From Candidatus Pseudothioglobus aerophilus (GTDB taxonomy: Bacteria; Pseudomonadota; Gammaproteobacteria; PS1; Pseudothioglobaceae): a DNA stretch of 64,000 nucleotides. Below are positions 1 through 17,292 of the stretch, in pieces. The notes under the pieces were generated by a model. It worked only from the letters and a program-made list of their open reading frames with translations. It did not search any database and had not been told where the DNA came from. The stretch covers positions 1 to 64,000 of the forward strand of contig JACNFO010000061.1 in assembly GCA_014384565.1 (NCBI GenBank). Reading direction: 5' to 3'. A program made the translations under genes and the position numbers. Position 1 is the stretch's first letter. Each line of letters opens with the position of its first letter.

Positions 1-287
1 CTTCCAAGGTAGTCATCGGAGGCTAGGTTATGAGGAAGATCAATCATAAAGCCCGAATTTCTTCCTGCGGGACCCTCACCTATTTCACAGGCTTCAAGTA
101 TTGTAATTTTTATATCCTTATTGATTTGATTTAAACGTCGAGCTGCAGAGAGGCCAGCAAAACCTCCACCAATAATTAGATAGTCTACATTGCTATGATT
201 AGAAAGCTTTGGATTGACCTTTCTTTTAGGAAGAATTTCTTTCCAGCCAGTTTTACCAGGGTTTTTTGGTAGTTTGATTTTGCTCAT
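1..287 (-). CDS. FAD-dependent oxidoreductase, DAO family (5' part only)
   Basis: Not in the ORF track because it runs off the window edge. Reading leftwards from the ATG at 285-287 gives 95 residues. After a ~32-residue N-terminal extension comes a dinucleotide-binding motif (YLIIGGGFAGLSAA), then an acidic strand end (ILEA) and a GPAGRNSGF segment typical of DAO-family flavoproteins such as PuuB or glycine/D-amino-acid oxidases. These oxidise amines or amino acids with FAD. The substrate cannot be read from the N-terminus. It diverges from an aldehyde dehydrogenase gene, a pairing that would fit amine oxidation to an aldehyde followed by its oxidation to an acid; that link is inference. Confidence 0.8.
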   Translation of the reverse strand, partial: MSKIKLPKNPGKTGWKEILPKRKVNPKLSNHSNVDYLIIGGGFAGLSAARRLNQINKDIKITILEACEIGEGPAGRNSGFMIDLPHNLASDDYLG

Positions 288-297
288 TTTTGTTCTT

Positions 298-411
298 TTA
301 ATATACCGACTCTTCCATCGCATTATTCAAAGTAGGAAGCATTTCAATCTTGACTTTTAGTCGATCTGTTCTCTTTGCATCCTTACCAAGTCTTTTAGAA
401 GAGTTAACCAT
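298..411 (-). CDS. Possible 37-aa small protein upstream of the DAO oxidoreductase
   Basis: A short ORF below the track's cut-off: ATG at 409-411, TAA at 298-300, giving a basic N-terminal half (SSKRLGKDAKRTDRLKVK) and an acidic tail. It ends 10 nt before the start of the DAO gene on the same strand, as expected for a leader or co-translated small protein. No Shine-Dalgarno sequence is visible ahead of it and I recognise no family. It could equally be untranslated leader. Confidence 0.3.
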   Translation of the reverse strand: MVNSSKRLGKDAKRTDRLKVKIEMLPTLNNAMEESVY

Positions 412-585: not shown

Positions 586-2034
586 ATGTCAAATCTGTCT
601 AATAACTTTATAGCCGGCGACTGGGTCAAGGGTTCTAGTTCGATATCTAACATAAATCCTTCCGACACTAGCGATGTCATTGGTGAGTATGCGCAAGCAA
701 ATAATGCTCAGCTAGAGGATGCCCTTAACTCTTCTCAAATTGCGCAAAAGCAATGGGCTGCTACTGGTTTGGAGCAGCGACAAGCTGTGTTGATGAAGAT
801 TGGTGAGGAGATGATGGCTCGAAGTGCTGAGTTAGGAGAGCTACTTTCTCGTGAAGAAGGTAAACCGGTAGCTGAAGGCAAAGGAGAAATTTATAGAGCT
901 GGTCAATTTTTTACTTACTACGCTGCTGAAGTGCTTCGTCAAAGTGGAGATACTGCAGATTCAGTTAGGCCAAACATTGAAATTGATGTTCGACGAGAAG
1001 CTATGGGGACTGTTGCAATTATTTCTCCTTGGAATTTTCCAACAGCAACTGCAAGCTGGAAAATTGCGCCAGCACTAGCATTTGGTAATGCAGTAATCTG
1101 GAAACCTGCCAACCTAACTCCAGCGAGCGCCGTTGCATTAACAGAAATCATTGCAAGGCAAGATATTCCAAAAGGATTGTTTAATTTAGTTATGGGGTCT
1201 GGATCATCTATTGGACAGGCTTTAGCTGAAAGCCCAAAAGTCCATGCTATTAGTTTTACTGGATCCTATGATGTTGGACTTCAAATAGCTGGTGCTGCGG
1301 CAAAAAACTTAACGAAGTTTCAATTAGAACTTGGATCTAAAAATCCATTAGTAATAATGGATGATGCAGATATTGACGTTGCTGTTGCTGCTGCAACTGG
1401 CGGTGCTTTTGGAAGTACAGGTCAAAAGTGTACTGCTTCATCAAGGCTAGTGGTTCACGAATCAATACACGATGAGTTTGTTGATCGAATGAGTCAGTCT
1501 ACTGCAGATCTAAAGGTTGGACATGCTCTTGATGAAGGCACTCAAATTGGTCCAGTAGCCAGTCAGCAGCAACTTGACTCAAACCTTAGATATATGTCTT
1601 TAGCAAAAGAAGAGGGATGTGAAATAGTTTGTGGCGGTGAGAAACTCGAGCTCGATAATCCAGGTTTTTACATGCAGCCTGCATTATTAGTTGGTGGTAA
1701 TAATTCAATGCGGGTGAACCGAGAAGAATTGTTTGCACCTATGGCGTGTGTTATTAAGGTTGCGGATTATGATGAAGCACTTTCAGTTTCCAATGATACT
1801 GATTTTGGTCTTGTTTCAGGCATTATTACTCAGTCACTATCACGAGCAAGTCATTTTCGAAGAAATGCAGAGAGTGGTTGCGTTATGGTGAACTTACCAA
1901 CGGCTGGCACCGATTATCATGTTCCTTTTGGCGGTAGAAAAAATTCAAGCTTTGGTCCCAGAGAGCAAGGATCCTATGCAAAAGAGCTATATACTCAAGT
2001 TAAAACTTCATATATTTCTAGTGGAAACCCATAA
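586..2034 (+). CDS. NAD(P)-dependent aldehyde dehydrogenase
   Basis: A full-length 482-aa member of the ALDH superfamily, oxidising an aldehyde to its acid with NAD(P)+ in the cytosol. Visible signatures: SPWNFP with the oxyanion Asn near 150, the cofactor lysine in IWKPAN (173), the general base in LELGSKNP (Glu248) and the nucleophile in GQKCTASS (Cys282). Overall it looks closest to semialdehyde dehydrogenases of the succinate/alpha-ketoglutarate semialdehyde type (GFYMQPALL, VPFGGRKNSSFGPRE), so a dicarboxylate semialdehyde is a possible substrate. It heads a tight run; its stop overlaps the next start by one base (TAATG). Confidence 0.93.
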   Translation: MSNLSNNFIAGDWVKGSSSISNINPSDTSDVIGEYAQANNAQLEDALNSSQIAQKQWAATGLEQRQAVLMKIGEEMMARSAELGELLSREEGKPVAEGKGEIYRAGQFFTYYAAEVLRQSGDTADSVRPNIEIDVRREAMGTVAIISPWNFPTATASWKIAPALAFGNAVIWKPANLTPASAVALTEIIARQDIPKGLFNLVMGSGSSIGQALAESPKVHAISFTGSYDVGLQIAGAAAKNLTKFQLELGSKNPLVIMDDADIDVAVAAATGGAFGSTGQKCTASSRLVVHESIHDEFVDRMSQSTADLKVGHALDEGTQIGPVASQQQLDSNLRYMSLAKEEGCEIVCGGEKLELDNPGFYMQPALLVGGNNSMRVNREELFAPMACVIKVADYDEALSVSNDTDFGLVSGIITQSLSRASHFRRNAESGCVMVNLPTAGTDYHVPFGGRKNSSFGPREQGSYAKELYTQVKTSYISSGNP

Positions 2035-3023
2035 TGGCTCATCCATCACTTTTTATTGACGCCCTTCAATACAACAATTGGAGTGAAGAGGTATTCAAAC
2101 AAATTAATGATGGTGGTCTAAGTGCGGTCCATGTTACAATTTGCTACCACGAAGACTTTAAGGAGATGGTTCAAAATGTTATTGACTGGAATCGCTATTT
2201 TGAAAGTTATTCAAATTTGATTTTCCATGGCAAGTCTGCAAGTGATGTACTTAAAGCTCAAAATGAGGGACGAACTGCAATATTTTTTGGGTTTCAGAAT
2301 TGCTCGCCCATAGAAGATGACATTGGATTGGTCGAAATATGCCATCAATTGGGAATTCGATTTATGCAGCTTACATATAATAATCAAAGCTTATTAGGTA
2401 CAGGTTGTTACGAAGAAAATGACCCAGGTATAACCCGAATGGGTAAGCAAGTAATTAAAGAAATGAATAGAGTTGGCTTGGTGGTTGATATGAGCCATTC
2501 TTCAGAGATTTCTACTCTTGAGGCGATTGAAATTTCAGAGCGCCCTATTGCTATTACCCATGCTAATCCAACTTTTTGGCATCCTGCATTAAGGAACAAG
2601 TCTAATAAAGTTCTTGAGGCATTAGGTGAAAGTGACAGTATGCTTGGGTTTTCAGTATATCCTCACCACCTAAAGGATGGAACAAATTGTACTTTGGAAA
2701 GCTTTTGCCAAATGATTGCTGATACTTCAGAAATCATGGGGGTTCATAATATTGGAATTGGTACAGATTTGTGTCAAAATCAACCTGACAGTGTTGTTGA
2801 ATGGATGAGAAATGGTACTTGGACAAATGAACGTGACTATGGTGAGGGTTCTGCAAGCTTTGCTGGTTTTCCTGAGCAACCAGAATGGTTTCGCAACAAT
2901 CATGATTTTGTAAATATTGCAACTGGCTTAAAAAGTGTCGGATTCTCTAGTGATGATGTTGGTTTAATAATGGGTAAGAATTGGCTAAACTTTTTTGAAG
3001 CCTCTTTTGAATCTTTAAAGTAA
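2034..3023 (+). CDS. M19 (membrane/renal) dipeptidase family protein with degraded metal site
   Basis: 329 aa, peptidase M19 fold. Canonical M19 enzymes bind two zincs through an N-terminal HxD, a central Glu and two later His. Here the HxD position reads IDALQ, and the usual Glu-containing strand reads FGFQNCSPI with Gln in place of Glu. The two later histidines remain (VVDMSHSS and ITHANP). The 'FQN.SPI' form is, as I recall, a recognisable subfamily also found beside dimethylglycine/glycine betaine catabolic genes in Pseudomonas (PA5396). Classical dipeptide hydrolysis is therefore doubtful. ATG overlaps the ALDH stop by 1 nt; the next gene follows after 6 nt. Confidence 0.85.
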   Translation: MAHPSLFIDALQYNNWSEEVFKQINDGGLSAVHVTICYHEDFKEMVQNVIDWNRYFESYSNLIFHGKSASDVLKAQNEGRTAIFFGFQNCSPIEDDIGLVEICHQLGIRFMQLTYNNQSLLGTGCYEENDPGITRMGKQVIKEMNRVGLVVDMSHSSEISTLEAIEISERPIAITHANPTFWHPALRNKSNKVLEALGESDSMLGFSVYPHHLKDGTNCTLESFCQMIADTSEIMGVHNIGIGTDLCQNQPDSVVEWMRNGTWTNERDYGEGSASFAGFPEQPEWFRNNHDFVNIATGLKSVGFSSDDVGLIMGKNWLNFFEASFESLK

Positions 3024-3029
3024 ATAATT

Positions 3030-4772
3030 ATGACTACTGAAACTGTACAAATTGATATTGATTCTGATTTTATGAGAACACCTGAAAAGGTGATGCGTCT
3101 TGAAAGGATGGGCTCATCTTTTCCAACTCGGTTAAGCTTTATGCGAACTCTTATAAGGCGTATGTCTAAAGAGAATTGGAAGTTTGAAAGGACTCGTCGT
3201 GAAGTTGATAAAGATGGATATGGCATAAGTGTTTATGCAGTTACTACACCTAATAGAACATATTCATTGATAGCTTTTACTCAAGAAATTCCAGCTGATA
3301 TGAGAACGGATAGGGTTATTGCTGAGGTATGGGATGCAACGTTTAGTCTTTTTGACGGCGTTCCATCACAAGAGGATATTGATTATTTGGCGGACAACAC
3401 GCCTAAGCAAGAGGCTGGTCGATATAGGCCAAGTGAGCTTACCTTATCAAGGGCAAATAAAAGTCTAAGAGTTTTTAAAAATGTTGTTGACTCTTTGTCT
3501 GCTGGAAATCAGCCTGATAAAGATTTGTTAACCTCTGTAGGTTATTTAATGAGAACTTCTGCAGTTTATGGAAGTGGAAAGTTTGGTTGTGCCGATAGAG
3601 ATAAGATTTCTGATCGAGAGGAGTGTAAAGCACCTTTTCAAATAGAATTGTTAACTGTCTACTTAATTCGATGGTTCACGATAGATTCAGCTGAAGAGCT
3701 TGCAAAAGAAAGGGGTGGAGAAAAAGCCGTTAAACTTGATAAAACTACACGTCGATTTATTGGCGTTGGAAATGCAACAGGCCTTGGTATGGCCCCATTT
3801 TTGCTTAAGCATCCTGCATTAATTCATAATTGGGTTGTTGCAAAAGAGACTGCATTGGCAAGAGTCAGGTCAATTGAAACTCCAATTGAAGGTACTCTTA
3901 AGGTTTTTTTAAAGTCACTTCTTCAGGTTAGCCAGCATGTTGATGAATGGAATGTTGAAGACGATATTCAGAGCGAAAGAATCTCCTGCTTGACAGACGA
4001 AATTCAAGCACTAAGACTTTGGTGTGAAAATGAGCCAAATATTTTAAGACCATATCCTTGGAATGGAATTTATCAATATGTTGAGGATAATTTTTCTCTT
4101 GAGTGTCAAGAGATGGTTGTGTCACTTATTATTGAGCCACATGGAGCATTAGTTGATGACTTAGCTGAGACGATGTCAACAACTGAAATTCCAAAATTTA
4201 AAGCAGATATGTCTTTATCTGAATTAAAAGAGGTTGTAGCAGATTCCTATCAATGGGCGACAACTATAGACTTTTCTTTGGGGGAATCTCAACATCATTT
4301 TTGGTACTATTCAGAGGATAAATTAGAACCTAGATTTGGCTCTAAAGGTGTTGATGACGGAGTTGAGAAAGAAATGCCTCTTGCTATTGGTAGAGATGTT
4401 CATGATTTAAATGAAAAACTATTGGAAACTAGTAACGCAACTTCTCTCAGTGACTTTGTAATGAGTTATCCGCAATTTAGACATATTATTCGTCGAATTC
4501 AGAATACTTTTGTAAGGCCTTATTCTGAAGTACAAGATAATCTATTGAGTGAGACCATGAGGCCATTAGATCTATTACGCTTTAAGTTGGCTTTTTTTGG
4601 CGCTTCGAAATTTGATCCAAAGTCAAACCTTTGGACTCGGATATCAATGTATCAAGGCGCACCGATGCCTGACCAATTATCAGAACCAAATCACGACTGT
4701 TGGTCATTTCCAATTGGAGGTCGTTCGCAGTCATATCCTTGCATAAACTGTACATGTCAAAAAGACATCTAA
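3030..4772 (+). CDS. Unrecognised 580-aa protein in the catabolic operon
   Basis: I do not recognise this family. It is soluble, with no signal peptide or membrane segment. Notable segments are GNATGLGMAPFLLKHPAL near residue 250, a Trp/His-rich stretch (HHFWYYSEDKLEPRFG) near 430, and a C-terminal CINCTCQKDI that could bind metal. It also carries a GKFGCADRD...EECKAPFQIE stretch around 185-205. It sits 6 nt after the M19 gene and overlaps the following DUF3726-like gene by 19 nt, so it is almost certainly co-translated with both. The overlap suggests partners in one pathway or complex. Codon use matches its neighbours and does not suggest recent transfer. Confidence 0.8.
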   Translation: MTTETVQIDIDSDFMRTPEKVMRLERMGSSFPTRLSFMRTLIRRMSKENWKFERTRREVDKDGYGISVYAVTTPNRTYSLIAFTQEIPADMRTDRVIAEVWDATFSLFDGVPSQEDIDYLADNTPKQEAGRYRPSELTLSRANKSLRVFKNVVDSLSAGNQPDKDLLTSVGYLMRTSAVYGSGKFGCADRDKISDREECKAPFQIELLTVYLIRWFTIDSAEELAKERGGEKAVKLDKTTRRFIGVGNATGLGMAPFLLKHPALIHNWVVAKETALARVRSIETPIEGTLKVFLKSLLQVSQHVDEWNVEDDIQSERISCLTDEIQALRLWCENEPNILRPYPWNGIYQYVEDNFSLECQEMVVSLIIEPHGALVDDLAETMSTTEIPKFKADMSLSELKEVVADSYQWATTIDFSLGESQHHFWYYSEDKLEPRFGSKGVDDGVEKEMPLAIGRDVHDLNEKLLETSNATSLSDFVMSYPQFRHIIRRIQNTFVRPYSEVQDNLLSETMRPLDLLRFKLAFFGASKFDPKSNLWTRISMYQGAPMPDQLSEPNHDCWSFPIGGRSQSYPCINCTCQKDI

Positions 4773-5485
4773 CAATCTCTTTAAATGAAGTCCTTTTTTA
4801 TTTTACTCGAGCAGCTTTTGGAGTAAATGCCCCTATTGGCCTTTCAGAAGACTTTGCGCGAGGCAATATTTGGGTTTCAGAAAATGGTTTTGATCCTTCA
4901 CGATGTAGTTTAAAGGCGCTTGATAATTTAGATAGTAAAGCAAGTAGCTTATCAATCAAATTTGAAAAAACAAAAGATGGGGGGCATCTATTTTGTCCAG
5001 AAGGAAAATTCTTATCTTCCCTAGAGGCCTCATCAAGTTGTGTGGATTGGATAGAAGTTAGTAATGGCTCTGGTGCGCTAAAGATCAGTAATGTTGATTC
5101 TCCATTTCTAGTTGTTTCGGCTTTAGGGGCGAATGGGTGTCTTGGAATAAAGGTACTTTGGACTGATCAAGAAAAAAATCAATTTCAAGTTAACTTAATC
5201 AATAATGACGACTGGGAGGTCTTAAGTTCATCGTCTACGCTTATAGAATTAAGTAGCAATGCTGATATGTTAATTTCACCTTTAACAGCGAGCGATGAAT
5301 CCAATAAAGGAAATATTATTAAGAAATTTAACTTAGCCGAGGAGAAATTAAAAATTCTTCATATTGGCGTTAAAGTGGAAGAGAATTGGGATGCAATTTA
5401 TAGCTACTTTTCACGCTGTCTGGTTAAATCAAGTGCTGAGTCTAGGGCTTCTGGCGCTGGCGCTGGACTAGTCGATACAGACTAG
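4754..5485 (+). CDS. DUF3726-like protein, operon end
   Basis: The track starts at 4700, but the conserved N-terminus (MSKRHLTISLNEV...) begins at the ATG at 4754, giving 243 aa and a 19-nt overlap with the preceding gene. The opening SLNEVLFYFTRAAFG followed by LSEDFARGNIWVSENG resembles DUF3726 proteins as I remember them; I hold this family name with moderate confidence. The C-terminus ends in a Gly/Ala/Ser-rich tail. It has no known catalytic motif and probably works with the 580-aa protein whose reading frame it overlaps. Confidence 0.7.
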   Translation: MSKRHLTISLNEVLFYFTRAAFGVNAPIGLSEDFARGNIWVSENGFDPSRCSLKALDNLDSKASSLSIKFEKTKDGGHLFCPEGKFLSSLEASSSCVDWIEVSNGSGALKISNVDSPFLVVSALGANGCLGIKVLWTDQEKNQFQVNLINNDDWEVLSSSSTLIELSSNADMLISPLTASDESNKGNIIKKFNLAEEKLKILHIGVKVEENWDAIYSYFSRCLVKSSAESRASGAGAGLVDTD

Positions 5486-5486: not shown

Positions 5487-6866
5487 TTAGCATTCAATAA
5501 AGCTTACAGCTAAACCGCCCAATGACGTCTCTTTGTACTTTGTGGACATATCAAGGCCTGTCCTTTTCATAGCTGCAATACACTGATCTAGAGAAATTAA
5601 GTGCTCACCACTTTCTCTAAGTGATAGTGAACTTGCAGTATATGCCTTAACCGCTCCAAATCCATTTCTCTCAATACAAGGAACTTGAACAAGACCTTTA
5701 ACCGGATCGCAAGTCATTCCTATGTGGTGTTCTAATGCCATTTCTGCGGCATTTTCAATTTGAGCAGTTGTACCGCCTCTTACCGCGCACAAAGCTGCAG
5801 CAGCCATTGAGGATGCTGAGCCTACCTCCCCTTGGCAACCCACTTCAGCCCCTGATATAGAGCTGTTATGTTTTATTAGTCCGCCGATTGCAGATGCCGT
5901 TAATAGGAATTGACGAATTTGTTCTTGAGTCGCTGACTTGTGTTTGAAGAAGTAGTAAAGAGTTGCTGGAACTACTCCAGCTGCTCCATTGGTGGGAGCA
6001 GTAACTACCATATGACCAGCAGCATTTTCTTCATTTACAGCCATGGCGTATGCACAAAGCCAGTCACTAGAATTTGTATTTTCTGGATCAATCTGGAGGT
6101 TTTCATGTAATTTTTTTGCGCGCCTCTTTGTATTTAAGCCACCTGGCAAGATGCCCTCGGTCGCAAGACCACTTTCAACACAAGTTTTCATTGCATCCCA
6201 GATAGTGTCCAGCTCCCTATTCAGCATTTTTTCAGGGATATTTTCTATTTCATTGGCGAGCTTCATTTCCCAAATGGTTTTATTGTGCTTTTTTGACATT
6301 TCCAGCATTTGATCTGAATTATCAAACGGGAATGGGTAGGCTGAGCTCGGCTCAGCTGCAATAGGCGCTTCAACATTATCTATTTCTGCTAATGTAGATA
6401 TAAAACCACCACCGATAGAGAAATAAGTATGTGAAATTAGAATTGAATCTGACTTGTCAAGAAGCTCAAAAACCATACCATTAGGGTTTTGCTTTAATGA
6501 GTTCCTGGTATCAAAAATGATATCATCTTCCGAAAAGAATGCGACTTTTTGAGTGTTGTTGATAGCTATATTTTTTGAATTCCAAGTTCTCTCAATGACT
6601 TCATCCATATTCTCTTTAATGATGGTATTTGGAAGATAACCATTTAGTCCAAGAGTGACAGCTTTATCTGTTGCATGACCAACTCCTGTATAAGCTAAAG
6701 AATTCTTTAGAGTACACCTCATATGATGCATATCACCAGAAGGATTTGAATCTAAAAAATTTCTGACATGCGTCATAAAATCATTGGCAGCAACCATGGG
6801 CCCCATTGTGTGCGAGCTTGAAGGCCCAACACCAACTTTAAATAAGTCTAAAACACTGATAAACAT
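5487..6866 (-). CDS. sdaA: L-serine ammonia-lyase (Fe-S serine dehydratase)
   Basis: 459 aa, single-chain type as in E. coli SdaA/SdaB. It deaminates L-serine to pyruvate and ammonium using a [4Fe-4S] cluster. Seen: the N-terminal FKVGVGPSSSHTMGPM anion-binding segment, GAEVGCQGEVGSASSMAA, and the later cysteines in IGMTCDPVKGLVQVPC that bind the cluster with the first. It converges on the DUF3726-like gene with 1 nt between them and diverges from ghrA around a 22-bp palindrome. With the glycine cleavage operon next door (and GlyA elsewhere), it completes a route from glycine via serine to pyruvate. Confidence 0.95.
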   Translation of the reverse strand: MFISVLDLFKVGVGPSSSHTMGPMVAANDFMTHVRNFLDSNPSGDMHHMRCTLKNSLAYTGVGHATDKAVTLGLNGYLPNTIIKENMDEVIERTWNSKNIAINNTQKVAFFSEDDIIFDTRNSLKQNPNGMVFELLDKSDSILISHTYFSIGGGFISTLAEIDNVEAPIAAEPSSAYPFPFDNSDQMLEMSKKHNKTIWEMKLANEIENIPEKMLNRELDTIWDAMKTCVESGLATEGILPGGLNTKRRAKKLHENLQIDPENTNSSDWLCAYAMAVNEENAAGHMVVTAPTNGAAGVVPATLYYFFKHKSATQEQIRQFLLTASAIGGLIKHNSSISGAEVGCQGEVGSASSMAAAALCAVRGGTTAQIENAAEMALEHHIGMTCDPVKGLVQVPCIERNGFGAVKAYTASSLSLRESGEHLISLDQCIAAMKRTGLDMSTKYKETSLGGLAVSFIEC

Positions 6867-6929
6867 AAAAAAATTACATAAAAAGTATTACTAATATTCT
6901 ACATTAATATTTGATTTTAGCTATTAAAA

Positions 6930-6951
6930 AAATTCATGGTACCGTGAATTT
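6930..6951. promoter_or_regulatory. 22-bp near-perfect palindrome between sdaA and ghrA
   Basis: AAATTCATGGT/ACCGTGAATTT: 10 of 11 positions are symmetric. It lies in the 168-bp divergent region, 64 bp from the sdaA start and 84 bp from the ghrA start, where a shared operator would be expected. The GGTACC core with A/T arms is the size of a GntR- or LysR-type site. No regulator is encoded beside it. Confidence 0.5.
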
Positions 6952-7034
6952 CTTAATAACTATTTTTAGGGCACTGTCTTGCATAAGTAAATTAAAATAC
7001 CAATATTAATTTGAAAATAACTATGAGTTAAACT

Positions 7035-7973
7035 ATGTCAATAGTATTAGCATCTACAGACTTCTGGGAGGATATGGAGGTTTGGTCAAATGGCCTGCAA
7101 AAGGCTATGCCAGAGATGGATATAAAAGTTTATCCGGATGATGGGGATGTTAATGAGGTTGAATTTGCTGTTGTCTGGAAGCATCCTCGAGGTATATTAA
7201 AAAAATATCCTAATTTAAAGGCAATTATGTCCTTGGGGGCAGGAGTAGACCATATTACTAGTGATCCTGAGCTGCCTGAAGGGATTCCTATAGTTCGCCT
7301 GGTTGATAAAAAATTAACTCATGAAATGTGCCTTCACGCCTTGCATTGGGTACTTCATTTTCATAGCGATCAGCATCTTTATAGATCTCAACAACTTAAA
7401 CGCCAGTGGATTCAGCAAAGCTCTATTCAGACAGAGGACCGAACAATTGGCATTATGGGCCTAGGGAATATTGGCAGAAGTATTGGTGAATTATTAGTTA
7501 CTCAAAGTTTTAATGTTATTGGCTGGGGCGCTAATCAAAAATCTTCACTCGCAGATATTAAATATTATTATGGTCAAGGCCAGCTTTCTGATTTTTTAGG
7601 CAGGACGAATATTCTAATTAATGTCCTTCCCTTAACATCAGATACTGCCAACATTATTACAAAAAAAGAGCTTAGCCTTCTTCCAAAAGATTCATTTATT
7701 ATAAATATTGGTAGAGGTGGAATAATTAATGAGAATGATTTAATGACTCTTCTTAGTGAAGGGCATATTAAAGCAGCTGCTTTGGATGTATTTGCACAAG
7801 AACCGTTGCCAGAAAATAATTCACTTTGGGACCATCCTTCAGTTTATATAACGCCACACATTGCAGGGCAAAGTAATCCAAATTCAGCAGGACAAACTAT
7901 TTCTGAAAACATCCATCGAATCCAAAAAGGAGAATTGCCTTATCCTATATATAGTAGGGCTAATGGGTATTAA
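7035..7973 (+). CDS. ghrA: Glyoxylate/hydroxypyruvate reductase, GhrA type
   Basis: 312 aa, D-2-hydroxyacid dehydrogenase family. It resembles E. coli GhrA along its length, including the N-terminal ADYALVWHPP-like segment (EFAVVWKHP) and LGAGVDHI. The Rossmann motif IGIMGLGNIGRSIG spans about 137-151. The catalytic triad is in place: Arg227 (NIGRGG), Glu256 (FAQEP) and His275 (PHIAG). It reduces glyoxylate to glycolate or hydroxypyruvate to glycerate with NADPH. Placement between sdaA and the glycine cleavage genes fits handling of serine/glycine-derived oxo acids. It stands alone, 161 nt before gcvT. Confidence 0.85.
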   Translation: MSIVLASTDFWEDMEVWSNGLQKAMPEMDIKVYPDDGDVNEVEFAVVWKHPRGILKKYPNLKAIMSLGAGVDHITSDPELPEGIPIVRLVDKKLTHEMCLHALHWVLHFHSDQHLYRSQQLKRQWIQQSSIQTEDRTIGIMGLGNIGRSIGELLVTQSFNVIGWGANQKSSLADIKYYYGQGQLSDFLGRTNILINVLPLTSDTANIITKKELSLLPKDSFIINIGRGGIINENDLMTLLSEGHIKAAALDVFAQEPLPENNSLWDHPSVYITPHIAGQSNPNSAGQTISENIHRIQKGELPYPIYSRANGY

Positions 7974-8062
7974 TTCTGATACAAAACTTTGTGATTAGCT
8001 AAAGGAAGACTGCTGAGTCTTGTAACCATTCTGTCGATATTCACATAATTACCCTATTTATA

Positions 8063-8081
8063 TCAATTCAAGACGAATTGA
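8063..8081. promoter_or_regulatory. Inverted repeat just upstream of the gcvT promoter
   Basis: TCAATTC-AAGAC-GAATTGA, perfect 7-bp arms with a 5-nt loop, ending 1 nt before the putative -35 hexamer. A candidate operator for the glycine cleavage operon. I looked for a glycine riboswitch here and do not see one. Confidence 0.4.
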
Positions 8082-8082
8082 A

Positions 8083-8111
8083 TTCAACTAAATAAACTAT
8101 TCTTATATAAT
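8083..8111 (+). promoter_or_regulatory. Putative sigma70 promoter of the gcv operon
   Basis: TTCAAC (8083-8088), 17-nt spacer, perfect TATAAT (8106-8111). A start near 8118 would leave a short leader of about 17 nt before the ATG at 8135, which argues against the track's upstream TTG start at 8120 and against any 5' riboswitch. Confidence 0.55.
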
Positions 8112-8134
8112 ATGGCTTTTTGAGACACATTGTA

Positions 8135-9259
8135 ATGTCTAAAGATATGTTAATTCAAACTACTCCCTTGCATCAAATGCACTTAGATGCTGGAGCAAAG
8201 ATGGTGCCTTTTGCTGGGTATGATATGCCTGTAAGTTACCCTCTTGGGATAAAAAAAGAACACAACCACACACGTGAAAAAGCAGGACTTTTTGATGTCT
8301 CTCATATGGGGCAGATAAGGCTGGGTGGTGTAAATGCAAAAAAAGCACTTGAGTCTATAGTTCCAGTTGATATTATTGATTTACCCTTAATGAAATTGCG
8401 CTATGCTTTATTTACAAATAAATCTGGCGGTGTAATGGATGACTTGATGGTTACCAATCTGGGTGATGAAGATTTGTTTTTAGTGGTTAATGCTGGCTGT
8501 AAAAATGCTGATTTTGCTCATTTGCAAAGGACAATTGGTGATGACTGTAAAGTAGAGTTTCTTGAAGATGTTGCACTATTGGCATTACAAGGACCTTCAG
8601 CACATAAAGTTTTATCTGAGATTGCACCTTCTATTAGTGAAATGCTTTTTATGACCGCTAAACAAGTAGTTATAAATGGAATTGAATGTTTGATAACAAG
8701 GTCTGGCTATACAGGAGAAGATGGTTTTGAAATTTCATTAGCAGCTAAAGATTCTGAGGAATTAGCAAAAATTTTACTTTCTAACATAGAAGTTGAATGG
8801 GTTGGTTTAGGTGCAAGAGACTCTCTTCGTTTAGAAGCTGGATTATCTCTTTATGGGCATGAACTTGATATTCATCATAGTCCTGTTGAGTCTTCATTGG
8901 GCTGGGCATTATCCAAGGTAAGAAGAACTGGTGGAGAAAGAGAAGGTAATTATTTAGGCTTCGAAACTATTATGAAGCACCTTAGTGAGGGCTCCGAATC
9001 AAGGGTTTTTGGCCTTCAACCCGAAGGAAGAATGCCTGTTCGAGATGGAGCAATGATTGAAGATGAGTTGGGTAATAATGTGGGAAAGGTAACAAGTGGT
9101 GGCTTTGGCCCTAGCATAAATAGGCCAATAGCTATAGCAAGGTTAAAAAAGAGTTATATAGAAAAAAATTCCAAGCTTTTTGCATTAGTTAGGGATAAAA
9201 AAATTGCAGTTGAGATTGTAAGTCTGCCATTTGTTAAACAGAACTATTACAGAGGTTAA
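8135..9259 (+). CDS. gcvT: Glycine cleavage T protein (aminomethyltransferase)
   Basis: The track begins at a TTG (8120), but the promoter position and homology favour ATG 8135 (374 aa); ATG 8147 (MLIQTTPLHQMH) is also possible. GcvT moves the methylene group from the H-protein-bound aminomethyl arm to tetrahydrofolate and releases ammonia. Recognisable segments are the N-terminal TPLHQMHLDAGAKMVPFAGY, FDVSHMGQI, VDDLMVTN-like MDDLMVTNLG, GYTGEDGFEI and GLGARDSLRLEAGL, with the C-terminal GKVTSGGFGPS. First gene of gcvTHP; gcvH follows after 21 nt. Confidence 0.95.
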   Translation: MSKDMLIQTTPLHQMHLDAGAKMVPFAGYDMPVSYPLGIKKEHNHTREKAGLFDVSHMGQIRLGGVNAKKALESIVPVDIIDLPLMKLRYALFTNKSGGVMDDLMVTNLGDEDLFLVVNAGCKNADFAHLQRTIGDDCKVEFLEDVALLALQGPSAHKVLSEIAPSISEMLFMTAKQVVINGIECLITRSGYTGEDGFEISLAAKDSEELAKILLSNIEVEWVGLGARDSLRLEAGLSLYGHELDIHHSPVESSLGWALSKVRRTGGEREGNYLGFETIMKHLSEGSESRVFGLQPEGRMPVRDGAMIEDELGNNVGKVTSGGFGPSINRPIAIARLKKSYIEKNSKLFALVRDKKIAVEIVSLPFVKQNYYRG

Positions 9260-9280
9260 ATATTAATATGAGGAGTAGTA

Positions 9281-9652
9281 ATGAGTATTAAATTTTCAGA
9301 AGATCATGAATGGATTCAGTCACAAGGAGATGATCTAGTAGTTATTGGGATAACGGATTTTGCCCAAGAGCAATTAGGAGATCTGGTTTATGTTGAGTTA
9401 CCGGAAGTTGGGGATGAGTGTAGCCGCGGAGAAAATATTTCCGTAATTGAGTCAGTTAAAGCTGCTTCAGATCTAGTTGCACCAGTTTCTGGAACTATTG
9501 TTGAAGTTAACAGTCGTTTAGAAGATGAGCCAGAACTTGTCACTGAAGACTCTATGGGCGAAGGTTGGTTTATCAAGGTGAAATTATCAAGTCCTGAAGA
9601 ATTAGATGAATTAATGGATGAAGGCGCGTACAACACTTTTATTGAGGAATAA
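9281..9652 (+). CDS. gcvH: Glycine cleavage H protein
   Basis: 123 aa lipoyl carrier that shuttles the aminomethyl group from GcvP to GcvT. The lipoylated lysine is Lys60 in IESVKAASDL, at the expected place in the hybrid lipoyl fold (E. coli about residue 65). A good ribosome site (GAGGAG) lies 10 nt ahead of the ATG. It is 21 nt after gcvT and 12 nt before gcvP, so one operon. Confidence 0.96.
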   Translation: MSIKFSEDHEWIQSQGDDLVVIGITDFAQEQLGDLVYVELPEVGDECSRGENISVIESVKAASDLVAPVSGTIVEVNSRLEDEPELVTEDSMGEGWFIKVKLSSPEELDELMDEGAYNTFIEE

Positions 9653-9664
9653 GGAAAGAGTTAA

Positions 9665-12517
9665 ATGGCTAAAAAAATTGAAGATTTATTAAATAATGAT
9701 GCCTTTACTTCTAGGCATATTGGTTCTTCAACTGAGCAGAAAAATCAGATGCTTGATTATCTTGGTTTTGACAACTTAGATAAGTTAATTGATGAGATTG
9801 TGCCAGATGTTATTCGTCGGAAAAAGCCGATGAATATAGCTAAAGGTATGTCGGAGTTGGCAGCCCTTAAAAAATTAAGAAATCTAGCTAGAATGAATAT
9901 TCGTTATAAGTCATTCATTGGCCAGGGTTATTACAATGCAATTACACCACCAGTAATTCAGCGCAATGTCCAAGAAAATCCCTCTTGGTACACAGCTTAT
10001 ACCCCTTATCAGCCAGAAATATCTCAAGGCCGGTTAGAGGCATTAATGAATTTTCAAACAATGGTCTCAGACTTAACAGGGATGGATTTGGCAAATGCAT
10101 CAATGCTAGATGAGGCAACTGCTTGCGCAGAAGCTATGACTTTATGTCATCGAGTTAGTAAATCTAAGAGTCAAATATTTTTTGTAGCTAATGATTGTTT
10201 TATTCAAAATATTGAAGTAATTAAAACTCGAGCTGAGCCACTAAATATTGAGGTCGTTGTTGGTGACCCTTTGACTGATCTAAAAGAGCTTGATTGTTTT
10301 GGAGTGTTATTGCAATATCCTAATACTTATGGCGGCTATAGTGATTACTCAAGTTTAATAGAATTAGTTCATCAAAAAAAAGCTCTCGTTGCAGTTAGTG
10401 CAGACTTACTTTCTTTAACACTTTTAAAGCCACCTGGTGAAATGGGTGCAGATATAGTAGTTGGTAATACTCAAAGATTTGGAGTGCCAATTGGTTATGG
10501 TGGGCCACATGCTGCCTTCATGTCTATCAGTGACAAATACAAAAGGTCTATGCCTGGGCGTATTATTGGAGCATCGGTTGATACTAAAGGGAGGCTTGCT
10601 TATAGACTTGCGCTTCAGACTAGAGAGCAACACATTCGCCGTGAAAAAGCGACAAGTAATATTTGTACTGCTCAAGCTCTTCTAGCAATTATGGCAAGCA
10701 TGTATGCTGTTTATCATGGACCAGAGGGACTTAAAAATATCGCTGATCGAATTTTTCGCTACTCAAGTGTTTTTGCTGAAGGCATGTCAGAAATGGGATT
10801 TCGTATTTTAAATGAGACATTTTTTGATACATTAACTATAGAAGTTGAGAACTCTGATGCAGTAGTTATGCAAGCTGAAAAGAATGGATACAACATAAAT
10901 GTTTTTAGTAAGACACTCGTTTCAGTTTCATTTGATGAGCTGAGTGCTCCTGAGGATATAGAGTACTTATGGAAAATATTTAATACAGAATCTGGCCTAA
11001 ATACTCAAATTATATTTGAAAAAAATAAGACTCAAATTCATAAAAGCCTAAAAAGAAAATCAAGCTTCTTGACACATGATGTTTTTAATACCTATCGATC
11101 AGAAACAAATATGATGCGCTATATTCGATATTTAGGGGATAAGGATATTGCACTTGATCGCTCAATGATTCCTCTTGGTTCATGCACAATGAAGCTTAAT
11201 GCTGCAGCAGAATTAATACCAGTATCTTGGCCAGAATTTTCTCAGATCCATCCAGCAGTTCCAATGAATCAAGTCATAGGTTATCAGGAGATGATTAGTG
11301 AGCTTGAAGAAATGCTTTGTGAGGCAACAGGTTATGCTGCAATATCACTGCAGCCAAATTCAGGAGCTCAGGGTGAGTATGCAGGATTAATTGCAATTCG
11401 TGCTTATCACCGAAGTAGAGGTGAAGAAAATAGAAATATTTGTTTAATCCCATCTTCTGCCCATGGTACTAATCCAGCATCTGCGCAAATGGCTGGTATG
11501 AAGGTAATCGTAATTGATAGTGCAGAGGATGGCAATATTGATCTTTTAGATTTAAAAGCTAAAGCAAAAGAGCATGCCGATAATTTAGCTGCAATAATGA
11601 TTACATATCCTTCTACTCATGGAGTATTTGAAAAGGACGTAAAAGAGGTTTGTGAAATTGTTCATAATGCTGGAGGCCAGGTTTATATTGATGGTGCTAA
11701 TATGAACGCAATGGTTGGTGTTTCTGCTCCAGGTGAGTTTGGAGGCGACGTATCACACCTTAATTTACATAAAACATTTGCTATTCCTCATGGTGGTGGT
11801 GGCCCTGGAGTTGGGCCAATTGGCGTTAAAGAGCATTTAGTACATTTTTTACCAACAACGCCATTAAATAATACAGATGTTGGAAGTATTTCTGGGGCTC
11901 CATGGGGTTCTGGCAGTATTTTGCCTATCAGTTGGATGTATATTGCAATGCTTGGTAAAGAAGGTCTTTATGCTTCTACATGCAATGCAATTTTAAATGC
12001 AAACTATATATCAAAGAGACTTGAAGAGCACTATCCAATACTTTATAGTGATGAAAATGGCAGAATTGCCCATGAGTGTATTATTGATATTAGGCCCATT
12101 AAAGATACAGTTGGTATAAGTGTAGATGATGTAGCTAAGCGACTCATTGATTACGGTTTTCATGCTCCAACTATGTCATTTCCAGTTGCCGGAACGTTAA
12201 TGATTGAGCCAACAGAGTCTGAGTCATTGGATGAGCTTGATCGATTTTGTGAAGCTATGATACAAATCAGAAAAGAGATACTAAAAGTTGAATCTGGAGA
12301 ATACTCTACAGAAGATAACCCGCTAATTAATTCTCCACATACTCTAGAAATGGTAACATCTACAGAATGGAATTTTTCATACTCCAGGGAAGAGGCAGCA
12401 TATCCTGTCGAAAGTTTAAGGCGAGTTAAATACTGGCCGCCAGTTTCGCGTGTGGATAATGTCTATGGAGATAAGAACTTAATTTGTTCTTGTCCAAGTT
12501 TAGAAGATTATAAATAA
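9665..12517 (+). CDS. gcvP: Glycine dehydrogenase (decarboxylating), P protein
   Basis: 950 aa, the fused long form (E. coli 957 aa), not the split gcvPA/gcvPB seen in many low-GC bacteria. PLP-dependent decarboxylation of glycine. The PLP lysine is Lys703 in [16 protein letters not shown]. The N-terminal half has FTSRHIGSS and [13 protein letters not shown]; the C-terminal half has [12 protein letters not shown] and [11 protein letters not shown], all typical. It supplies C1 units and NADH from the glycine made by sarcosine oxidation. Followed after 7 nt by a GcvR-like gene. Confidence 0.97.
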
Positions 12518-12524
12518 AAATTTT

Positions 12525-13040
12525 ATGACATCATTTTTGATTAGTGTTTTAGGTGACGATAAACCTGGGCTTATTGACGGTCTTTCAAAGATTATTGTGG
12601 CTAATAATGGTGACTGGATTGAGAGTAATATGTCCAGCTTTGAAGGAAAGTTTGCAGGAATTCTGAAGGTTAATGTGCCATCCAAAAATGCTACTCAATT
12701 AAGTAAAGAGTTGGTTTCATCATCTTTAGGATTACAAATTGCGTGCGAAGAAACTTCCCCATTAAAACAAGCTAATGTAAAGAGTTATAACATTGAGCTT
12801 ATTGGTCAAAATCATGTTGGTATTATCAATAAACTATCTCATGTTCTAGCAGATGATTTGCAAGCAAATGTAGAAGAGTTAAAGACTGAGATAATTGATG
12901 CATCTATGTCTGGAGAGCAGCTTTTCAAAGCACAAATTACTCTTCATTTGCCAGTCTCCCTTGATGAAAGTCTTATTAGAGATAAGCTTGAGCTAATTGC
13001 AGATGAGATGATGGTAGAGATATATTCTTACGAAAGTTAG
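12525..13040 (+). CDS. gcvR: GcvR-like tandem ACT-domain protein
   Basis: 171 aa, two ACT-like halves: SVLGDDKPGLIDGLSKII at the N-terminus and ELIGQNHVGIINKLSHVLA from about residue 90. In E. coli GcvR binds GcvA and represses gcvTHP when glycine is low. Here it is 7 nt after gcvP and presumably co-transcribed, so it may sense glycine and adjust the operon it belongs to. No GcvA-type LysR gene is nearby, so the partner is unknown, and it may act differently from E. coli GcvR. Confidence 0.75.
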   Translation: MTSFLISVLGDDKPGLIDGLSKIIVANNGDWIESNMSSFEGKFAGILKVNVPSKNATQLSKELVSSSLGLQIACEETSPLKQANVKSYNIELIGQNHVGIINKLSHVLADDLQANVEELKTEIIDASMSGEQLFKAQITLHLPVSLDESLIRDKLELIADEMMVEIYSYES

Positions 13041-13077
13041 GATGGTTTGATTAGTAAGAGTTATTATTTCTTTTGAT

Positions 13078-13848
13078 CTAGAAACTTCCATAAGCAATAA
13101 ATGGACCATTTCTATAATTAGACTTTCCATAGTTAAACGGCTCATCATTTGGATGCTTAACTGAGCCACCTGCACATCTCAATACAGCATCTCCAGCAGC
13201 AGTGTCCCATTCCATAGTTGGACCAAATCGAGGATAGACATCAGCCTCACCACAGGCAACTAAACAAAATTTTAATGAAGACCCAATGGATGTTGTATTC
13301 TTAATTTTATGATCATTTAACCAAGTATTTGTTAATTCGTCACGATGAGAAATGCTTGCTACAGCAACAGCTCCAGATTGAGGTAATTCTCGTATAGTTA
13401 TAGGCTTAATTAAGTCATTTGATTCTTCGAAAGCGCCAGTAGCAACTGAAGCAAAAAACATCCTGTTAAGTGCAGGTGCATAAACAACCCCTAAAGTTGG
13501 AATGCCATTTTCAATAAGTCCAATATTTACAGTAAATGAACCTAAGCCATCTTTTTTAAGGAACTCTTTTGTACCATCAAGTGGATCTATGAGAAAAAAC
13601 TGATTCGTAGCTTTTGAACTATGACTTTTTGAGTCTTCTTCTGAGACAATTAAGATATCTGGGGTAATCTCTTTAAGTTTTTTAAGAATTACATCCTCTG
13701 CTGCTTTGTCAGCTAGTGTGACCGGTGATCCATCATCTTTGAACTTAACATTTATTGAATTAGCATAGATTTTTATAATCTCATTACCAGCATTTCGGGC
13801 TGTTAATTTCAACTCTTTTAATAAATATGAGTAATCAATAGTTTCCAT
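13078..13848 (-). CDS. cysQ: 3'(2'),5'-bisphosphate nucleotidase CysQ (copy 1)
   Basis: 256 aa, inositol-monophosphatase superfamily. Metal-binding motifs: SEEDS (about 75-79), FLIDPLDGTKEF (about 88-99) and EWDTAAGDAVLRCAGG (about 208-223). CysQ removes the 3' phosphate of PAP, an inhibitor of sulfotransfer and RNases such as Orn. It lies 29 nt downstream of the creatinase gene on the same strand, an odd partner. A second homologue is at 42420-43241, so one of the two may act on a different phosphomonoester such as inositol phosphate. Confidence 0.85.
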   Translation of the reverse strand: METIDYSYLLKELKLTARNAGNEIIKIYANSINVKFKDDGSPVTLADKAAEDVILKKLKEITPDILIVSEEDSKSHSSKATNQFFLIDPLDGTKEFLKKDGLGSFTVNIGLIENGIPTLGVVYAPALNRMFFASVATGAFEESNDLIKPITIRELPQSGAVAVASISHRDELTNTWLNDHKIKNTTSIGSSLKFCLVACGEADVYPRFGPTMEWDTAAGDAVLRCAGGSVKHPNDEPFNYGKSNYRNGPFIAYGSF

Positions 13849-13877
13849 TTTTCTGGGTTAGTGTTTTATAAAAACTA

Positions 13878-15083
13878 CTAAGTAATAATATTATGCTCTG
13901 GACCAAATGGAAATTTGGTGATGTCATAGGCGCTATCTTCAGTTAATACCATAACATCATGTTCACGATAACCACCAGCACCAGCCTGACTTCCTGGGAT
14001 CATAATCATAGGCTCCATAGAGACAACCATATTTTTTTGCAGCACTGTATCTATATCCTCTCTTAGCTCAACTCCAGCTTCACGGCCATAGTAGTGAGAC
14101 AAAACTCCAAATGAATGACCATATCCAAAAGTTCTACTTTCAAGTAAGCCATACTCTTCAAAAATTTTATTAAGTTCAAGTGCGATGTCTTTGCATGCAA
14201 CTCCTGGCTTGATAAGTTTCATTCCTTCCTCATGTACCTTTACATTAATTTCCCACAATCTCAGGGATTCGTCATCAACATGATCATAAAATAATGTTCT
14301 TTCGAGTGCAACATAGTAGCCTGCAATCATTGAAAAACAATTAAGACTTAAAATATCACCTTTTTGAACTTTCCTAGTGGTCACGGGGTTGTGCGCGCCA
14401 TCAGTATTAATGCCAGATTGAAACCAAGTCCAGGTGTCCATTAGCTCTGAGTTTGGATATCGCTTAGCAATTTCTCTGACCATAGCCTGTGTTGAGTGAA
14501 GGGCTACCTCGTGTTCTGGCACTCCTTCTTTAACAGCTTCAACGAGTGCTGCTCCGCCTATATCACAAACATTTGCCCCCTGAATGATATGAGCAATTTC
14601 CTCATCTGACTTGATAGAGCGCATCTTCATGCAATCAACTGAAATATCAATAAAGTTTGATTTGTTAAATGCAGCTTGAAGCTTGTCTAAGCGCTCTTTA
14701 GTTATATGATCATACTCTATACCAATTTTATCGCCATTACTTACGAGCTGTTGTAATGCATAAAAGAAGCTATCTTTTTGCCAGTCTGTGTAGACTAAGT
14801 TTTCACCAAAAGTTCTACGCCAAGGTTGGCCACCATCAATATTTGCAGTTACCGATGTAGTTTTATCTTGCGTAACGACAAGTGCATAAGGTCTGCCAAA
14901 AGAGCAATAGAGGAAGTCACTGTAATAATTAATACCATGAATTGACGTAAAAATTATACTATCAATGTTATTTTGCGCCATATGAGTTCTGAGACTCTGC
15001 TGGCGATTTTGGAATTCTTTATCACTGAATGTATGGACTATATTATCACCATTGGGTATGTGTATCGATCTTGGCATATTCAT
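13878..15083 (-). CDS. creA: Creatinase (creatine amidinohydrolase)
   Basis: 401 aa, M24 pita-bread fold. From memory it aligns almost end to end with Pseudomonas putida creatinase (403 aa), for example INYYSDFLYCSFGRPYALVV, DTWTWFQSGINTDGAHNP and YGHSFGVLSHYYGREAG. The catalytic residues match with a one-residue offset: His231, Glu261 and Glu357 for His232, Glu262 and Glu358. Like that enzyme it needs no metal, and the M24 metal ligands are absent. It hydrolyses creatine to sarcosine and urea, and sarcosine oxidase genes lie 3.3 kb away. A strong ribosome site (AAAGGAG) precedes the ATG. No creatininase or urease is in the window. Confidence 0.93.
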   Translation of the reverse strand: MNMPRSIHIPNGDNIVHTFSDKEFQNRQQSLRTHMAQNNIDSIIFTSIHGINYYSDFLYCSFGRPYALVVTQDKTTSVTANIDGGQPWRRTFGENLVYTDWQKDSFFYALQQLVSNGDKIGIEYDHITKERLDKLQAAFNKSNFIDISVDCMKMRSIKSDEEIAHIIQGANVCDIGGAALVEAVKEGVPEHEVALHSTQAMVREIAKRYPNSELMDTWTWFQSGINTDGAHNPVTTRKVQKGDILSLNCFSMIAGYYVALERTLFYDHVDDESLRLWEINVKVHEEGMKLIKPGVACKDIALELNKIFEEYGLLESRTFGYGHSFGVLSHYYGREAGVELREDIDTVLQKNMVVSMEPMIMIPGSQAGAGGYREHDVMVLTEDSAYDITKFPFGPEHNIIT

Positions 15084-15214
15084 AGCGACTCCTTTGATTG
15101 AGTTAATTTGTGCGGATGTTAGTCATTTTAGTAAAGTATAGCAAGCTTTTTTTAAAGCATATATTTTCTGCTTGATGAAAAATAGCTTATGATCCATGGT
15201 CTAATTACTCTAAT

Positions 15215-16081
15215 TCATTGAGGTTTATTTAAAATACTTTCACGTATGAATGTATAAAGTCCTGAAGCTACGACAATAGATGCCCCAATAAGGGTAAAGC
15301 TATCTGGCCTCTCTCCAAGAACTATTATTGCTAGAAGCATTGCGAATACAATCCGTGAATATCGGAATGGTGATATAACGGACATTTCACCAATGCGTGA
15401 TGATATAACAAGAGAATAATAAGCAATTACTCCAAAAGTCGATGCTCCAATAAAATACATAATTTGATATAGTGATGGAGCTATCATTGGTGAATTAAAT
15501 GGAATAATCAAAATACCTGAGAATCCAAAAGCTATAAAGGCATATAAAGCAATCGTTACCGAGGGAAGGTCAACCTTCATTGCGCGAGTTGATAAATCTC
15601 TTGCTGCTAGAAATAAAGCTCCAAGCAATGCAAATATTGAAGCCGGCATAAAGCCACCATAGCCAGGACGCAAAATTAATAACACACCCAGAAAGCCAAC
15701 AAATACTGCTGTCCAGCGCCTCCATCCTACTTTTTCTCTAAAAAATATTACAGCGCCAATGGTTACTAATAATGGCGTTATTTGTAGAATAGCTGAAGCG
15801 GATGAAAGTGGCGTTAAAGCAATTGCTGTAACAAAAAATACCGCCCCTAAGAGCTCACAAATTGTTCGAATTATTACATGTTTATTTAATAGGTCTTTAT
15901 GAAAAATTGGTGCTTTCTGAAAAAGTGCAATTATGAGAAAAACGATACTTCCAGTAAAGCCAAGAATTATTATTACTTCTGAAATTGGAAAATAAGCTGA
16001 GAGAATTTTAATAAATAAATCCTCAAATGCAAATCCAGCCATAGCAAGAATCATGAATAGAATGCCTCTTAAGTTATCCAT
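15215..16081 (-). CDS. DMT-family (EamA) transporter, upstream of creatinase
   Basis: 288 aa, about ten hydrophobic segments in two EamA repeats, the inner-membrane drug/metabolite transporter architecture. It precedes the creatinase gene on the same strand by 131 nt, so the two may be co-expressed; uptake or release of a guanidino or N-methyl compound would fit, but the family's substrates are broad. It diverges from a second EamA gene at 16275 across a 193-bp gap. Confidence 0.85.
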   Translation of the reverse strand: MDNLRGILFMILAMAGFAFEDLFIKILSAYFPISEVIIILGFTGSIVFLIIALFQKAPIFHKDLLNKHVIIRTICELLGAVFFVTAIALTPLSSASAILQITPLLVTIGAVIFFREKVGWRRWTAVFVGFLGVLLILRPGYGGFMPASIFALLGALFLAARDLSTRAMKVDLPSVTIALYAFIAFGFSGILIIPFNSPMIAPSLYQIMYFIGASTFGVIAYYSLVISSRIGEMSVISPFRYSRIVFAMLLAIIVLGERPDSFTLIGASIVVASGLYTFIRESILNKPQ

Positions 16082-16202
16082 GAATTTTTAGGCCTAAGTG
16101 TTTAAAGTTAAATTTTAACTGCTACTAAGCTCTGAATTTACTTATTTTTTGTACAAATAATAGTGTTAACTTTGGTATCTCTTCTTGGCACGTAAAAAAT
16201 GA

Positions 16203-16231
16203 TTGACAGATATATATTTTAAGAACAAAAT
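16203..16231 (+). promoter_or_regulatory. Putative sigma70 promoter of the second EamA gene
   Basis: Perfect TTGACA (16203-16208), 17-nt spacer, CAAAAT (16226-16231), followed 43 nt later by the chosen start codon. One of the clearest promoter matches in the window. Confidence 0.5.
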
Positions 16232-16274
16232 GCGGAAATAATTAGTGTCAATCTTTATGTTATGTAGGGGTTTC

Positions 16275-17171
16275 ATGCAGAATAGATATTTTCTTGGATT
16301 TTTATTAGTCGTTATCAGCGGAATCATCTGGAGTTTTGGTGCGCCACTTGTTCGCCTACTAGAAGATGCTGAAAACTATAGACTTCAATATCTACTTTAT
16401 AGGGGTTTAATAATCACATCGGTGATTCTCATTTATGTAGCATTTAGAGAAGGCAAAGATTTTTTTCTTACGTTTAAGAGGATCGACTCCTGGAGTTTGG
16501 TTGGAAGCGTTGTAATGTCATTTACATTTTTTGGATGGATTTATGCATTAACAACAACAACTGTAGCTATTACTCTATTAATGCTTGCCCTGTCCCCAGT
16601 TCTTTCTGCGTTTTTAGGCTACCTTATTTTAGGTGAAAGGTTGAGTCCTATCACTTTTATAAACATGTTAATTGTTGCTGCTGGAATTACAATTATGGTT
16701 TGGGATAGTGAAAAATCAACTACTTTATTAGGCGTTGTTTATGGTTTCTTTGTAGCTTTAGGCTTTGCAATATACACAATTACAATTCGAAAAAATCCTG
16801 AAGTACCTAAATTATTAACGCCTGCGCTTGCTGGCTTTTTTTGCATGTTATGGGCAACAATTTTAATTCTAGTAAGTGGAAGTAGTTTTGAAATGGCCTC
16901 AGCCAATATTGGCATTAGTATGATGCATGGCTTAGTAGTTGGAGTTGGCCTTATATTATATGGCTTAGGGGCAAAATATTTGCCTAGTGGTGAGCTTGTA
17001 ATGCTTTCATTGCTTGAGGTTGTTTTAGGTATTTTTTGGGCGTGGCTTCCAATATTCGGCATTCACGAGATTCCGAGTACAAATACTTTAATTGGCGGTT
17101 GCGCTATATTTATGGCAATTATTTTTCAGGGAATGAATGCCAGAAAAAAACATGTAATCCCTATGCCTTAG
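16275..17171 (+). CDS. DMT-family (EamA) transporter
   Basis: 298 aa from the ATG at 16275 (MQNRYFLGFLLVV). The track uses a GTG at 16245, but AGGGG sits just before 16275 and the hydrophobic core starts there. Two EamA repeats, about ten membrane segments; FLGYLILGERLSP in the first half and LSLLEVVLGIFWAW in the second are typical. Substrate unknown. It is read towards the gbcB-like/sox run but 121 nt and a possible promoter separate them. Confidence 0.85.
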   Translation: MQNRYFLGFLLVVISGIIWSFGAPLVRLLEDAENYRLQYLLYRGLIITSVILIYVAFREGKDFFLTFKRIDSWSLVGSVVMSFTFFGWIYALTTTTVAITLLMLALSPVLSAFLGYLILGERLSPITFINMLIVAAGITIMVWDSEKSTTLLGVVYGFFVALGFAIYTITIRKNPEVPKLLTPALAGFFCMLWATILILVSGSSFEMASANIGISMMHGLVVGVGLILYGLGAKYLPSGELVMLSLLEVVLGIFWAWLPIFGIHEIPSTNTLIGGCAIFMAIIFQGMNARKKHVIPMP

Positions 17172-17268: not shown

Positions 17269-17292
17269 ATTTAAATACTAAGTTGAAGTAAG

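Follow-up and report, generated by a model that had tools for sequence, protein, structure and literature searches.

A SUP05/Thioglobus operon of a widespread type that may break down homarine or a related N-methylated osmolyte

Four closely packed genes from Candidatus Pseudothioglobus aerophilus encode an aldehyde dehydrogenase (ALDH), a homologue of the M19 amidohydrolases, a 580-residue protein (P580) and a relative of DUF3726, the last two being biochemically unexplained, yet not unique to this genome. Here, we examine the locus within a 64,000-nucleotide stretch, referred to as the window, that starts at base 1 of its contig (JACNFO010000061.1, contig 25 of the genome) and spans bases 1-64000 (Table 1). 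The four genes are not a local oddity but belong to a widespread gene set that probably degrades a small methylated marine metabolite; at a probability of about 0.5, we read them as the version, in SUP05/Thioglobus, of an operon spread by horizontal transfer through which an osmolyte that is N-methylated and carboxylated, homarine (N-methylpicolinate) being the likeliest, is catabolised to N-methylglutamate.

Table 1. Genes at the left end of the window, numbered from its first base.
Feature	Position	Strand	Remarks
DAO-family flavoprotein gene, 5' part	3..323	-	cut by contig end
MTTB-family methyltransferase gene remnant, ~30 codons (first 30)	320..411	-	rest and two SDR genes missing
ALDH gene	586..2034	+	482 aa; Pfam Aldedh 516 bits
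M19 (renal dipeptidase-type) amidohydrolase homologue	2034..3023	+	329 aa; Pfam Peptidase_M19 227 bits
P580 (580-aa protein)	3030..4772	+	matches no known family
DUF3726-like protein	4754..5485	+	243 aa; divergent; ATG start at 4754

The four genes from ALDH to DUF3726 form one tight operon that is both real and conserved. The sequence-only reading, made from the letters of this DNA, had described a 1-nt overlap, a 6-nt gap and a 19-nt overlap between them, and the reading frames lie exactly so, with a single nucleotide shared by the ALDH and M19 genes in the ORF coordinates, a gap at 3024-3029 between M19 and P580, and the 19-nt overlap between P580 and the DUF3726-like gene; the overlaps suggest translational coupling. 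The four-gene order is kept in relatives, where P580 is 81-92% identical, and the arrangement is therefore not a matter of chance. Close relatives' loci come mostly from SUP05/Candidatus Thioglobus genomes, followed by SAR324, which places the host among the gammaproteobacteria of the SUP05 clade.

A DAO-family flavoprotein diverging from the operon had been counted as part of the same catabolic route. The gene is indeed real and divergent, but it is truncated, since the window begins at contig base 1, and it belongs to a separate module: in four related loci (L032, L034, L035 and L056) DAO, SDR, SDR and MTTB genes stand together, divergent from the cassette, and in other relatives an ALDH and a DHDPS-family gene take the place of DAO. 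Window positions 1-288 match L034 2028-2315 at 91%, and from base 326 the match continues from L034 5299 onward at ~96%, so that about 3 kb are missing in the window; positions 288-411 thus represent a deletion scar relative to L034, unless the assembly is wrong close to the end of the contig. Only because of this loss does the DAO gene abut the cassette. We therefore rejected it as a pathway member, given its separate divergent operon in the nearest relatives, and it probably lies outside this pathway.

The distribution of P580 defines which of the genes belong together. In an even sample of Pseudomonadota the protein was carried by 29 of 399 genomes, and the surroundings of 33 P580 genes outside the host genome were surveyed, 32 of them in this sample and one in the host's family. 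Of these 33, 28 had a recognised M19 gene nearby, 27 DUF3726, 20 LysR, 18 ALDH, 17 BCCT, 12 RidA and 7 Ldh, and some neighbourhoods lacking a recognised DUF3726 gene held a small unrecognised ORF with the same N-terminal pattern. From the counts for M19, DUF3726 and ALDH, the stable core unit is M19 with P580 and DUF3726, a trio shared by members of SUP05, SAR324, roseobacters, Rhizobiales and other gammaproteobacteria. To this trio the ALDH is an optional addition, albeit the commonest extra enzyme. The sequence-only reading had tied its two unknown genes to both ALDH and M19, and they do occur widely without the former but not without the latter.

Homologues of P580 are 43-47% identical on roseobacter and Rhizobiales plasmids, 38% in Pseudomonas sp. 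MPC6 and 26-32% in Sinorhizobium and the haloarchaeon Natrinema. The usual set of the ALDH variant reads LysR - ALDH - M19 - BCCT transporter - P580 - DUF3726 - Ldh (or RidA). Ruegeria TM1040 and Phaeobacter show this order with Ldh (the Ruegeria TM1040 proteins WP_011536996-WP_011537000 being followed by Ldh), Aminobacter and Shinella have LysR - ALDH - M19 - P580 - DUF3726 - Ldh followed by a glycine-betaine ABC transporter, and further Pseudomonadota genomes also carry the order LysR-ALDH-M19-(BCCT)-P580-DUF3726-(Ldh). The gene order of these four cassettes is that of the window (ALDH 64-67%, M19 65% and P580 ~45% identical), whereas the window's DUF3726 protein is more divergent than theirs and no LysR, BCCT/ABC transporter or Ldh gene adjoins its operon. 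A second form, found in Sinorhizobium, Alloyangia and a second copy in Aminobacter, runs IclR - P580 - DUF3726-like - M19 - polyamine-type ABC transporter, with RidA near and, in two of the three, a GABA aminotransferase and SSADH as well. In a P580 tree, SUP05 is sister to SAR324 and joins the types found in alphaproteobacteria; the type-B (RidA) gammaproteobacteria lie apart, and the operon has therefore probably moved horizontally.

Some individual loci depart from these patterns. On the Natrinema plasmid pNVE500 (L070, 12097-14627) a small 'hypothetical protein' comes after the P580 homologue, with ALDH, DHDPS and BCCT genes close by and no M19 listed around it. The SAR324 locus L052 (2412-13255) holds M19-P580-DUF3726 with no ALDH, flanked by genes for a PhyH dioxygenase, an aspartoacylase-like protein, a PALP enzyme, two creatinase-like M24 proteins and a phosphoribosyltransferase, and by IMPDH/GMPR-like genes. 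On the single-cell contig KB889759.1, P580 appears as two overlapping partial copies at distant places (L057 and L059), probably an assembly or amplification chimera.

P580 matched no Pfam family, and profile searches against PDB and Pfam were equally empty. Across the aligned bacterial members and one archaeon some 50 positions are invariant, Arg, Gly, Trp and Asp/Glu being frequent among them. The AlphaFold model was too poor (pLDDT 58), a fold search with it giving no match in PDB or BFVD. For the last gene, the DUF3726 label of the sequence-only reading is upheld by family alignment and synteny and not by the Pfam score, which at 15.1 bits (PF12525, E 0.022) falls under the curated cut-off of 22.1; PF12525 was matched by 10 of 13 aligned relatives at E up to 1, the family alignment contains the DUF3726 motifs SLNE... 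and SR..GAGAG..D, and the protein adjoins P580 almost always. The Pfam DUF3726 model is too narrow and gave no hit in the host genome, and a literature search on DUF3726 found nothing relevant. Structure prediction, which served poorly for P580, gave a confident model for the DUF3726-like protein (pLDDT 86, only one of five models being good) that matches the Ldh_2 fold (2g8y, E 5.5e-6, probability 1.00, TM 0.59 of query), with ureidoglycolate dehydrogenase and Delta1-piperideine-2-carboxylate reductase among the matches. Sequence support for this relationship is weak but collinear (hhalign E 0.004, probability 8%; one member matches PF02615 at E 0.025), and the invariant S46-H47-G48 catalytic motif of the cassette Ldh proteins is without counterpart in DUF3726, so that the modelled protein looks like a shortened Ldh_2-fold protein devoid of the SHG motif. 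We tentatively suggest, with rather less than even confidence, that P580 and DUF3726 are a new two-subunit type of enzyme that opens or dearomatises heterocyclic betaines carrying an N-methyl group, the substrates differing between lineages across the range from SUP05 to haloarchaea. On its P580 side the pair has no detectable enzyme precedent.

The M19 protein is a member of PF01244 (227 bits against a cut-off of 26) that lacks the binuclear metal site of the dipeptidases (HxD, bridging Glu, two His and Asp). Its HxD motif is missing and Q88 replaces the bridging Glu, with H155, H176 and D245 kept, from which the first metal site is judged absent; both changes are found in all 35 aligned members and in structure 2i5g. 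The latter, which we take to be P. aeruginosa PA5396, is the best PDB match (196 bits). A literature search on PA5396 found nothing relevant. In Vibrio natriegens and P. aeruginosa, dgcAB is preceded by a predicted dipeptidase gene (PMC12093977), and the M19 protein of this dimethylglycine locus (2i5g) likewise has no HxD and Gln in place of the bridging Glu, but its neighbours (dgcAB, fixAB) differ from those of the window protein. The ALDH is 64-67% identical to that of the roseobacter and Rhizobiales cassettes; its nearest curated models are 2,5-dioxovalerate (alpha-ketoglutarate semialdehyde) dehydrogenases, with a score below their cut-off, consistent with a putative five-carbon semialdehyde substrate.

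Evidence on the substrate comes largely from genes that adjoin the cassette in other genomes. Among these are BCCT or OpuA-type betaine transporters, which point to a betaine, and, in three non-SUP05 records (Ruegeria TM1040, Phaeobacter and Shinella), SoxBDAG-like operons. The flanking operons have 70-81% SoxB identity to an operon of Ponticoccus that is followed by mgsABC and a type III (GmaS type) glutamine synthetase, against 50-55% to those linked to gbc, glyA or purU, and in FastTree trees of both subunits they cluster with the mgsABC-gmaS-linked operon, apart from the gbc/glyA/purU-linked sarcosine oxidases (Phaeobacter being placed by SoxA only). This places them with MgdABCD (N-methylglutamate dehydrogenase) and not with SoxBDAG. 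The host's second SoxBDAG-like operon, on contig 24, is also of the Mgd type, and the window's sarcosine oxidase (18425-23577, after gbcB) groups apart from it. Ruegeria TM1040 and Phaeobacter share an order in which soxBDAG (Mgd type) is followed by an HTH regulator, LysR and the cassette, an AraC-type regulator sitting between the Mgd-type operon and the cassette. This fits a report that places an AraC-type regulator gene, tmaR, beside mgdABCD in R. pomeroyi, describes this linkage as persisting in strains without the upstream trimethylamine genes, and refers to a recently reported action of Mgd in homarine catabolism (PMC13390433, citing Nat Microbiol 2026, 11:1531); homarine is also drawn down by R. 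pomeroyi within hours (PMC12817926). The catabolic route for an amine or N-methylated amino acid that the sequence-only reading had proposed thus survives in part: betaine transporters of the BCCT and glycine-betaine ABC types, LysR and MgdABCD-type operons recur, but the DAO protein is not a member and the ALDH is not obligatory.

Co-occurrence across genomes is less telling. Within the family of the host, the genera that hold P580 are exactly those with Mgd, but as GmaS follows nearly the same pattern the association is not specific. No Mgd homologue at E of 1e-150 or below was detected in the nine other gammaproteobacterial carriers of the phylum sample (type B, with RidA), so there the pathway ends differently or the substrate differs. 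At a strict threshold for Mgd (at least 75% identity), six of eight Rhodobacteraceae-like genomes with the ALDH-containing form carry it and one of eight with the ALDH-less form (Fisher p 0.04, with forms classified by hand and relatedness ignored), an association that is suggestive only. We also considered whether a host without GmaS would need another source of N-methylglutamate, an idea that was dropped, as GmaS is absent from this assembly but present in complete relatives.

Operon structure, trio conservation, betaine-transporter linkage and Mgd-type linkage (in the three non-SUP05 records) were computed; upon these we infer a substrate, a product and a step for each protein, in a scheme that is chemically possible. 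Conversion of homarine to N-methylglutamate would demand loss of ring carbon 6 and oxidation of carbon 5. P580 with DUF3726, and the Ldh_2-type reductase where present, would carry out ring reduction and oxidative opening, the ALDH may oxidise a 5-oxo-pentanoate-type semialdehyde, the M19 amidohydrolase could take off an N-acyl (for example N-formyl) group, and MgdABCD, on another contig of this genome, would yield glutamate and methylene-tetrahydrofolate from N-methylglutamate. Release of formate would be fitting for the purU gene that flanks the Shinella cassette. Two Ldh_2 genes lie elsewhere in the host genome, only 33-40% identical to the cassette type.

The homarine catabolic operon described in 2026 from environmental bacteria reportedly has six genes, homABCDER, with a regulator among them, and N-methylglutamate and glutamate as products. 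These genes would equal LysR plus the five enzymes of the cassette; a literature search on homABCDER found nothing relevant. That the hom operon is a cassette of the window type is conjecture, as is any gene-by-gene likeness; the two would have in common the involvement of Mgd and an occurrence in marine proteobacteria. The statement of the sequence-only reading that the genes match no known pathway is probably wrong, the set being likely one for homarine catabolism. Trigonelline degradation in Acinetobacter baylyi by TgnABCDE would work alike, with opening of an N-methylpyridinium carboxylate, a semialdehyde dehydrogenase and an amidohydrolase, but the cassette has no apparent flavin monooxygenase pair like TgnA/B. 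Were homarine the substrate, the abundant, mostly uncultivated SUP05/Thioglobus bacteria of the open ocean and SAR324 would help to turn over a common osmolyte of phytoplankton, and the operon would tie the lineage to one-carbon metabolism.

An operon of the same kind could instead act on another betaine or N-methylated heterocycle (proline betaine/N-methylproline, trigonelline or hydroxyproline betaine), its ALDH making N-methylglutamate from the semialdehyde and its homologues serving different substrates according to lineage. We regard this as possible but rather unlikely. The subtypes do differ in their partners, with Ldh or RidA and with Mgd present or absent, the Sinorhizobium cassette keeps company with a polyamine-type ABC transporter, GABA aminotransferase and SSADH, and in SUP05 the surrounding genes include MTTB, DHDPS-family and ALDH ones of the sort found in proline- and hydroxyproline-betaine routes. 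Proline-betaine routes, however, use Rieske demethylases and, to our knowledge, need no P580, DUF3726 or M19, and the MTTB module is separable, this genome having lost it but kept the cassette.

The surroundings prompt a different view, in which the operon is an accessory part of a pathway from glycine betaine through dimethylglycine, sarcosine and glycine to serine: GbcB, SoxBDAG, GcvT and serine ammonia-lyase are encoded within 24 kb, and the closest M19 structure, 2i5g, recalls the predicted dipeptidase gene that precedes dgcAB (PMC12093977). Elsewhere, however, transporters and regulators of its own accompany the cassette and gbc or gcv genes do not, which makes this improbable. Still further from favour is a role in the use of peptides or amides, M19 acting as a genuine dipeptidase. 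Family membership speaks for it, but all 35 aligned members lack HxD and have Gln where dipeptidases have the bridging Glu, and the transporters found alongside are for betaines and not for peptides, which leaves it very improbable.

Beyond the operon, window positions 5487-25000 hold what appears as a glycine betaine to pyruvate island, with genes for serine ammonia-lyase, a GhrA-like reductase, GcvT, an M24 creatinase-like protein, GcvT neighbours of GcvH/GcvP size, GbcB (17293-18399) and SoxBDAG (18425-23577). On contigs 15, 24, 25, 26, 56, 59 and 61 the 1.47-Mb genome also has four MTTB-family genes and several GcvT-domain matches in long open frames of 766-853 residues. Most of these frames match DAO at the N-terminus as well and so look like DAO-GcvT fusions of the dimethylglycine-dehydrogenase kind. 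Together with the MTTB-family genes, these predicted fusions may represent a large investment in methylated-amine use for a genome of this size.
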